A DNA stretch of 64,000 nucleotides, from assembly GCA_020724265.1 (NCBI GenBank), contig DYHH01000005.1:76650-140649 (forward strand), in the 5' to 3' direction. The notes beneath the pieces are model-generated. The model saw nothing but the letters and a program-made list of their open reading frames with translations. It made no database searches and was not told the origin of the DNA. The translations under genes and the position numbers were made by a program. Shown piece by piece: positions 59,222 to 59,890 of the stretch. Position 1 is the stretch's first letter. Each line of letters starts with the position of its first letter. The DNA comes from Melioribacter roseus. GTDB taxonomy: Bacteria; Bacteroidota; Ignavibacteria; Ignavibacteriales; Melioribacteraceae.

Positions 59222-59294
59222 GCGGGAATAGCTCAGTTGGTAGAGCGCAACCTTGCCAAGGTTGATGTCGCGGGTTCGAGTCCCGTTTCCCGCT
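59222..59294 (+). tRNA. tRNA-Gly (GCC)
   Basis: Acceptor GCGGGAA pairs TTCCCGC; D-arm GCTCAGTTGGTAGAGC; anticodon loop TTGCCAA gives GCC; T-arm CGGGTTCGAGTCCCG. Confidence 0.96.
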
Positions 59295-59300
59295 CAAAAT

Positions 59301-59328
59301 AATCCACCATGTGTGGATTTTCTTTTTT
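59301..59328 (+). terminator. Terminator after tRNA-Gly
   Basis: AATCCAC (59301-59307) pairs GTGGATT (59313-59319) around a 5-base loop, followed by TTTCTTTTTT. Confidence 0.85.
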
Positions 59329-59347
59329 ATATTAAATTAAAAATTAT

Positions 59348-59459
59348 GGCGGTGTAGCCACCTTCCTGCGGCGGGCAGGAGTGGTCTAATGTCCCGCTTA
59401 AAATCAGCGGGATAAACTCCGGTCTGCAACCCGCCTTAGGCGGGCGAATCCCTCCGCCG
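59348..59459 (+). pseudogene. tRNA-like sequence interrupted by three palindromic inserts
   Basis: Pieces of a tRNA occur in order: acceptor GGCGGTG, GTAGCCA, AGTGGTCTAA, GGTCTGCAA, CGAATCCC, and closing acceptor CTCCGCC. The four inner pieces match the intact tRNA-Cys at 59486-59559. Between them sit three self-complementary inserts: 59361-59379 (TTCCTGC/GCAGGA), 59390-59420 (TCCCGCT/AGCGGGA around TAAAATC) and 59430-59444 (CCCGCC TTA GGCGGG). A tRNA-Leu(TAA) reading was considered because of TTAAAAT, and because Gly-Cys-Leu is a known tRNA order, but the stem does not pair with that loop. Probably non-functional unless inserts are removed from RNA. Confidence 0.5.
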
Positions 59460-59485
59460 ATGCTTATTTAATTGTTTTTTGATTT

Positions 59486-59559
59486 GGTGGAGTAGCCAAG
59501 TGGTCTAAGGCGAAGGTCTGCAAAACCTTTATTCGTGGGTTCGAATCCCACCTCCACCT
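59486..59559 (+). tRNA. tRNA-Cys (GCA)
   Basis: Acceptor GGTGGAG pairs CTCCACC with T73. D-arm GCCAAGTGGTCTAAGGC; anticodon stem AAGGT/ACCTT with loop CTGCAAA giving GCA; T-arm GTGGGTTCGAATCCCAC. Confidence 0.95.
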
Positions 59560-59564
59560 CATTG

Positions 59565-59592
59565 ACCCGATTAATTCAATCGGGTTTTTTTA
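59565..59592 (+). terminator. Terminator after tRNA-Cys
   Basis: ACCCGATT (59565-59572) pairs AATCGGGT (59578-59585) around AATTC, followed by a T-run to about 59591. The GIY-YIG gene starts 4 bases beyond, so it needs its own promoter or read-through. Confidence 0.88.
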
Positions 59593-59595
59593 ATT

Positions 59596-59841
59596 ATGAT
59601 TTACTCGGTTTACATATTGCGTAGCTTAAAAGACAAAAAACGCTATGTAGGTATGACCGAAAGACCCATCAACCAAAGATTAGCTGAACATAATGCCGGT
59701 TTAGTTAAATCCACTAAAAATCGCCGACCTCTTGAATTTATTTATTCCGAAGAATACAATACAAAAAATGATGCATTGAAACGTGAAAAGTTTTTTAAGT
59801 CCGGCAAAGGTAGAGAATTCTTAAAATCAATTGGGAAATAG
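59596..59841 (+). CDS. Small GIY-YIG endonuclease-domain protein
   Basis: 81 residues, a complete single-domain member. The motif is SVYILRSLKDKKRYVGMT (VYI and YVG for GIY and YIG), followed by the catalytic Arg region INQRLAEHNAGLVKSTKNRRP and the metal-binding Glu in LKREKFFKSGKGREFLKS. Such proteins are nucleases, often standing alone or in mobile introns. The gene is inserted between an intact tRNA-Cys and a 3' tRNA-Cys fragment, and its stop codon (TAG, 59839-59841) overlaps the first base of that fragment. Confidence 0.9.
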   Translation: MIYSVYILRSLKDKKRYVGMTERPINQRLAEHNAGLVKSTKNRRPLEFIYSEEYNTKNDALKREKFFKSGKGREFLKSIGK

Positions 59842-59890
59842 GCGAAGGTCTGCAACCCGCCGTAGGCGGGCGAATCCGACCGCCGCCTCA
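59841..59890 (+). pseudogene. tRNA-Cys 3' fragment with palindromic insert
   Basis: GGCGAAGGTCTGCAA (59841-59855) exactly repeats 59509-59523 of tRNA-Cys. It is interrupted in the anticodon loop by the perfect hairpin CCCGCC GTA GGCGGG (59856-59870) and resumes as CGAATCC followed by a variant of the tRNA 3' end (ACCGCCGCCTC against ACCTCCACCTC). The 5' half is absent. Confidence 0.75.

Follow-up and report, generated by a model that had tools for sequence, protein, structure and literature searches.

Organization of the Locus

The window (the whole 64,000-nucleotide stretch of Melioribacter roseus DNA that was analyzed) contains a locus at which an intact tRNA-Gly gene and an intact tRNA-Cys gene, each accompanied by hairpin-bearing remnants of its own kind, lie on the forward strand together with a small gene for a GIY-YIG nuclease (Table 1), the next gene downstream being encoded on the opposite strand. 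All of the parts named in an initial sequence-only reading of the locus were recovered by ARAGORN, by ORF and PF01541 searches and by their sequence positions; the position at which that reading started its tRNA-Cys unit, 59222, belongs to tRNA-Gly, and the intact tRNA-Cys occupies 59486–59560.

Table 1. Features of the tRNA-Gly/tRNA-Cys locus, in positions of the window.
Feature	Position	Strand	Evidence or details
5′ remnant of tRNA-Gly with hairpin insert, without nuclease gene	59108–59164	+	tRNA pieces GCGGGAATAG (59108–59117) and CAGTTGGT (59157–59164); hairpin TCCGCC (59120–59125)/GGCGGA (59146–59151)
Intact tRNA-Gly(GCC)	59222–59295	+	ARAGORN; Rfam RF00005, 72 bits
Degenerate tRNA-Cys remnant with three hairpins	59349–59460	+	Hairpins at 59362–59380, 59393–59413 and 59431–59445, the last being CCCGCCTTAGGCGGG
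Intact (apparently restored) tRNA-Cys(GCA)	59486–59560	+	ARAGORN; Rfam, 70.4 bits
Terminator-like hairpin CCCGATT/AATCGGG plus T7, between tRNA-Cys and nuclease gene	59566–59591	+	Sequence
GIY-YIG nuclease gene, 81 aa	59596–59841	+	ORF; PF01541
3′ remnant of tRNA-Cys	59841–59889	+	15-mer GGCGAAGGTCTGCAA (59841–59855), sharing the last base of the nuclease TAG stop; hairpin CCCGCCGTAGGCGGG (59856–59870); CGAATCCGACCGCCGCCTC (59871–59889); adjoins native downstream flank

A hairpin had been proposed to split the tRNA-Cys fragment within the anticodon loop; it is present there, but it is more than a split, since it substitutes for 18 nt extending from the 3′ anticodon strand to the TT of the T-loop. 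The sequence CCCGCCNNAGGCGGG is found three times in the whole 3.77-Mb genome, twice at the window locus, and the tRNA-Cys junction of the window recurs at tRNA-Cys genes in other genera; the arrangement is therefore not a product of chance. A related hairpin-bearing remnant also lies upstream of tRNA-Cys in a genome of another genus (G005).

The Nuclease

The 81-aa ORF matches PF01541 with an E-value of 5.5e-16 and 59.1 bits against a cut-off of 22.6, and the domain (residues 3–71) covers the protein, in which a separate DNA-binding domain of the type found in classical homing nucleases is absent. The catalytic-motif residues Y6, Y17, G19, R28, H32, E64, and K68 are invariant among the sequences of 30 relatives, and the nearest solved structures by sequence are those of UPF0213 proteins and SLX1 (1zg2, 1ywl, 7cq2), for which the searches made here returned no mobile or tRNA-related role. 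PF01541 was the sole domain found, with no HUH (Y1) transposase; the ORF is the only gene of the unit, which contains no integrase gene. The median dN/dS across nuclease pairs is 0.24, and values between array copies are mostly 0.05–0.1; the nuclease is under purifying selection.

Occupied and Empty Sites

Occupied and empty alleles were compared by local alignment with three congeners (G001–G003). Four insertions of the M. roseus genome proved to be empty in these congeners, at tRNA-Lys (3 congeners), tRNA-Ser(GCT) (2), tRNA-Gly(UCC) (2), and tRNA-Cys (1), and the cassette was absent from these loci in every congener in which the locus was found. The inserts measure 504 bp (Lys), 447 bp (Ser), and 349 bp (Gly), the end of the tRNA being repeated on either side, and in the occupied alleles the hairpin-bearing remnant is followed by the native downstream flank. 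At tRNA-Lys, the native terminator follows the remnant, and a different, element-borne terminator follows the intact tRNA. The native flank thus adjoins the leftover, and at tRNA-Lys new DNA follows the intact tRNA, which indicates that the unit both interrupts the tRNA gene and makes it whole again. At Lys, Ser, and Gly, the intact tRNA of the occupied allele matches that of the empty alleles in every letter, so that perfect restoration can be regarded as demonstrated for these three. As to whether the restored end is of foreign origin, the tRNAs are too conserved to tell, and it is the Cys remnants, not the intact gene, that carry letters of other genera.

The GIY-YIG/tRNA-Cys arrangement in the window had been taken for a small mobile element that is directed at tRNA-Cys and partly rebuilds or duplicates it, and the empty congeneric sites support this: at the same position, G002 has neither the nuclease gene, nor the fragment, nor the upstream pseudo-tRNA. 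The degenerate tRNA-Cys of the window occupies the place at which empty relatives carry their tRNA-Cys, and the left homology with G002 reaches into it, whereas on the right the homology begins at 59840, which corresponds to nt 23 of tRNA-Cys, and extends across the downstream gene; the equivalent of the G002 tRNA-Cys is split in the window by about 480 bp, comprising a whole tRNA-Cys and the nuclease. A terminator similar to that in Table 1 is also found 3′ of tRNA-Cys in G002. Further upstream, the left native flank of the empty G002 allele, together with the first 10 nt of its tRNA-Gly, aligns up to 59117, and the alignment resumes at 59217. The tRNA-Cys remnants of the window bear acceptor-stem letters of other genera (GGCGGTG, CCGCCGCC) and the intact gene has the GGTGGAG type seen in G002, so that the assignment of donor and native parts is ambiguous at this locus; the other-genus letters may stem from a foreign donor or be fossil. 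It is plausible that the tRNA-Cys fragment is, as had been suggested, a recombination site.

The layout of a reconstituted gene, an endonuclease ORF, and a native leftover beside the native flank is seen at Lys, Ser, Gly, and Cys. Among the cassettes for which congeners were available, one is of the mirror form (type B, see below; tRNA-Asn of G001), and its contig starts at the remnant, which places it outside the left-flank comparison. Taken together, insertion of a mobile unit inside a tRNA gene, restoration of that gene, and retention of a hairpin-bearing leftover half, along with the lineage specialization described below, are shown by comparison of sequences.

Cassette Anatomy and Hairpins

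The commonest cassette consists of an intact tRNA, a nuclease gene, and a hairpin-interrupted tRNA leftover, in a unit of approximately 0.3–0.5 kb. In the type A order, the intact tRNA is followed by the nuclease gene and a tRNA 3′ piece with a hairpin; type B is the mirror image, a hairpin-bearing 5′ piece of the tRNA preceding the nuclease gene and the intact tRNA. No recognizable remnant was found in a few cassettes. Cassettes often occur in tandem arrays of two to five near-identical units with periods of about 300–450 bp, which begin or end exactly within the tRNA.

Within each isotype lineage, the hairpin keeps a constant position. Nine tRNA-Asp cassettes, each from a different genome (families f1 and f3), have CGAGTTCG swapped for a hairpin of the TCCCG type, the junction being constant while the hairpin sequence varies; Pro, Lys, and Gly(UCC) cassettes have another hairpin in place of the anticodon arm, and several of the Ser, Lys, Pro, and tmRNA cassettes contain a double hairpin in the T-loop at GGTTC^GAATCC. 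In the Arg, Ala, and Val cassettes of Bacteroidota and Planctomycetota, the hairpin remnants occur at tRNA nt 22/23 or 23/24, and a tRNA-Cys cassette of Calditrichota carries CCCGCCTGAGGCGGG.

The cassette hairpins are not accidental. A terminal stem of at least 4 bp is present in 50 of 77 inserts, as compared with a mean of 2.25 and a maximum of 7 in shuffles, and 68 of the 77 fold within the lowest 5% of their own shuffles. Among ten tRNA-Cys remnants, pairing is maintained in 100% of cells, 13 of which are changed on both sides; this level of double change was reached in 0 of 500 shuffles, which ignore relatedness, and every slid version scores far lower. Palindromes of the form TCCCGN{0,10}CGGGA are enriched in these genomes (19–86 versus 1–6 in controls). 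The possibility that the palindrome is a genome-wide mobile repeat that fell into the fragment was rejected, since the exact motif occurs only three times in the genome and since the hairpin letters track the isotype lineage rather than the genome.

Hairpin-bearing pieces also occur alone. In locus L130 (1564–2405), nine 92-bp tandem tRNA-Cys 3′ pieces with a double hairpin follow an intact tRNA-Cys without a nuclease, and upstream of a tRNA-Gly in another genome (L135), two tandem tRNA-Gly 5′ pieces with a hairpin repeat with a 135-bp period, likewise without a nuclease.

Association with tRNA and tmRNA Genes

A PF01541 search of the whole M. roseus genome gave eight matches, of which six are small ORFs and two fall in long open frames of 614 and 641 aa. 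Each of the six small genes has a neighboring RNA gene on its own strand: four lie next to tRNA genes (Lys, Ser(GCT), Cys, and Gly(UCC)), and the remaining two follow the tmRNA gene in tandem. This result within the genome was obtained with Pfam alone. When the window protein was used as the query in an order-wide census of 39 genomes, 160 distinct GIY-YIG matches were obtained, 95 of which have an intact tRNA or tmRNA within 400 bp, in a sample that is not neutral because the query was drawn from the same lineage; the rough expectation for random positions would be near 1%, given some 45 tRNA genes per 3.7 Mb. Further members of the census are later array units or lie at contig ends, and for only one ORF is the nearest tRNA on the opposite strand, more than 1 kb away. 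GIY-YIG genes were also seen downstream of tmRNA in Ignavibacteria and Bacteroidota (L010, L076, L212, L220), with a T-loop double hairpin inside the tmRNA 3′ piece of L076.

The sequence-only reading had called for a search of related genomes for small GIY-YIG genes near tRNAs, and the association recurs both across the order and in other phyla. A many-phylum scan with a peptide pattern, using one genome per species, yielded 80 loci; in 56 of them, an intact tRNA or tmRNA is no more than 250 bp away, in every case on the same strand. These 80 loci span Ignavibacteriota, Bacteroidota, Calditrichota, Chlorobiota, Planctomycetota (Scalindua), many Patescibacteria, Chloroflexota, Omnitrophota, and, among the archaea, a Woesearchaeote. 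The notion that every small GIY-YIG gene is tRNA-linked was rejected: of 29 loci drawn from the top-scoring Pfam hits in the phylum, only 5 have a tRNA nearby, always on the same strand, and many of the others lie in dispersed palindromes. The tRNA association belongs to one GIY-YIG subfamily. Two observations had been named in advance as counting against a linked unit. The same gene without a tRNA was seen, only in other lineages (an inverted-repeat clade and a larger dispersed-palindrome group), and fragments without the gene do occur, but they adjoin the same tRNAs and contain hairpins of the same kind, for which reason they are read as decayed or non-autonomous copies.

Lineages and Carriers

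A nuclease tree was built from 97 sequences and, because it comprises only 75 columns, is weakly resolved; mapped on it, the isotype label requires 27 changes, as compared with a mean of 63.2 when shuffled (0 of 200 shuffles). The nuclease lineages track the tRNA isotype and not the host, and the Leu, Asp, Met, and Lys groups, as well as several Asn and Ser groups, each cross host genera or families. Type A and type B forms are intermixed, occurring within the same group of the tree. Carriage by phages or plasmids was rejected: no close relative was found in the viral contigs or plasmids searched, and 16 phage records contain only relatives of less than 60% identity.

A clade with the same nuclease lies between 16-bp inverted repeats of the TTCACCCCGTGAGATA type, in the manner of a tiny transposon (L020, L021, L023, L069, L070, L077, and others), within what appear to be four-helix S23-like and tyrosine-recombinase genes. 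At another locus (L030), a 5′ fragment similar to the beginning of an NAD-dependent epimerase gene is separated by a broken nuclease ORF from the start of a second such gene, which is perhaps the same restoring layout in a protein gene. Other small GIY-YIG genes are situated among dispersed palindromic repeats beginning with TCATTCCCGCG or CGAGCGCAGTCGAGGG (L119, L124–L127, L247–L249, L255, L262), which suggests a second palindrome-linked lifestyle.

Proposed Explanation and Alternatives

The reading that we favor, with a probability of about 0.72, is that of a minimal target-restoring homing element composed of a small GIY-YIG gene and a piece of the gene that it enters. A type A element would carry the 3′ part of the tRNA together with its own downstream flank, and a type B element the 5′ part together with its leader; because the element sits inside the tRNA or tmRNA gene, it would have a complete host gene again at one of its sides and the old half at the other. 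The nuclease would break a naive tRNA gene, the break would be repaired from the cassette by recombination with the tRNA halves as homology arms, and the hairpin may then protect the leftover site from cutting; tandem arrays could arise by repeated insertion or unequal recombination. Several observations run against such homing: in three cases the restored tRNA equals the naive target, which leaves the avoidance of re-cutting unexplained; the protein lacks a separate DNA-binding domain, its nearest relatives being UPF0213/SLX1; and hairpin remnants exist without a nuclease.

The hairpin might instead be a substrate rather than a plug. Short palindromes are paired with a small nuclease gene in the REP/RAYT and IS200/IS605 systems, and by analogy, a structure-specific GIY-YIG enzyme could direct transposition by acting on the hairpin at the unit edge and on the hairpin-like arms of the tRNA. 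The palindrome at the unit edge (the terminal stem in 50 of 77 inserts) is shared with these systems, and a nuclease reduced to a bare catalytic domain closest to UPF0213/SLX1, hairpin pairing that is kept while the letters change, the placing of a related clade inside protein genes with flanking 16-bp inverted repeats, and the occurrence of further small GIY-YIG genes within dispersed palindromes would all fit. We nevertheless regard this explanation as doubtful: the hairpin position varies by isotype, several cassettes simply swap out a tRNA arm, and tRNA homology is kept on both sides with the gene rebuilt, as in homing. The units here further differ from REP/RAYT and IS200/IS605 in that the nuclease is of the GIY-YIG rather than the HUH type and insertion restores a tRNA gene.

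Ordinary tandem duplication, in which unequal recombination of a tRNA locus leaves one copy to decay and gain palindromes beside a nuclease that is there by chance, would account for arrays that are exact tandem repeats, for nuclease-less remnant arrays such as the nine 92-bp units, and for the TCCCGN{0,10}CGGGA enrichment of these genomes. It is improbable in view of a nuclease that is the only gene of the unit, is under purifying selection, lies on the tRNA strand in practically all cases across many phyla, and is missing from empty alleles, and in view of a hairpin position that is fixed per isotype lineage. An RNA-level system, in which pseudo-tRNAs with altered arms would be decoy or regulatory RNAs and the GIY-YIG protein would act on tRNA, is very improbable: some remnants keep most of a tRNA and anticodon arms are exchanged for other hairpins (Lys, Pro, Gly), but many remnants are a 5′ or 3′ piece only, the cassettes behave as insertions, and the GIY-YIG families matched here are DNA nucleases. 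A group I or group II intron was also considered and rejected, as no Rfam intron family was found in the window region or at 20 loci and the tRNA is contiguous.

Relation to Known Systems

tRNA genes are essential and conserved and constitute a classic target of mobile DNA, usually of large integrase-bearing elements; phages and ICEs integrate into tRNA genes and restore their 3′ part. In contrast, the unit described here has no integrase and a single nuclease gene, leaves a hairpin-bearing leftover, and restores 5′ parts as well. A single 80-residue nuclease seems to be enough, because the element supplies the half-gene that it destroys.

Mobile ORFs that make gene hybrids are found in fungal mitochondria, in Allomyces atp6, Rhizopus atp9, and Glomus atp6, atp9, cox2, and nad3, the Glomus atp9 ORF being of the GIY-YIG type (PMC3630166). 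As here, an endonuclease ORF enters a gene and brings a replacement end, while the native end stays downstream; the fungal targets, however, are mitochondrial protein genes and the enzymes LAGLIDADG or GIY-YIG (PMC3630166), whereas the targets here are prokaryotic tRNA and tmRNA genes. The elements here also differ in their size of about 0.3–0.5 kb, the hairpin leftover, and the tandem arrays, and in that some restore the 5′ half and others the 3′ half; the word “hairpin” is absent from the fungal report (PMC3630166).

A second likeness is with SegB of phages T4 and T6, a free-standing GIY-YIG homing endonuclease in tRNA clusters (PMC13096335). Its gene adjoins tRNA genes, and nuclease-dependent tandem amplification produces a 718-bp tRNA-nuclease repeat, tRNA-Tyr and segB being amplified together in phage genomes; the passages on this amplification describe no insertion into a tRNA gene, no restoration, and no hairpin-plugged halves (PMC13096335). 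The elements here share the free-standing trait, in that the nuclease gene lies outside any intron and beside its target, but the 81-aa protein lacks a separate DNA-binding domain. By analogy, the best fit would be a prokaryotic tRNA/tmRNA counterpart of the fungal mitochondrial mobile ORFs and phage SegB, with a hairpin in addition.

In the open-access literature, no bacterial description was found that combines a tRNA or tmRNA target, restoration of either half, a hairpin leftover, and a size of 0.3–0.5 kb, and the window looks like one member of a widespread, apparently undescribed class of selfish elements. More tentatively, these may form a distinct class of autonomous elements, among the smallest known (a nuclease of ~80 residues in 0.3–0.5 kb), that use hairpins as substrate or self-mark and rebuild a structured-RNA gene; such a class would extend over many bacterial phyla and archaea, be isotype-specialized, and comprise 5′- and 3′-restoring forms, nuclease-less derivatives, and an inverted-repeat sister clade. 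If the favored reading is true, it would account for many of the annotated “GIY-YIG nuclease family proteins” near tRNAs, for palindrome-bearing tRNA pseudogenes, and for tandem arrays at tRNA loci, and it would make available a natural model of very small size in which to study the coexistence of a homing nuclease with an essential, seemingly uncut target.
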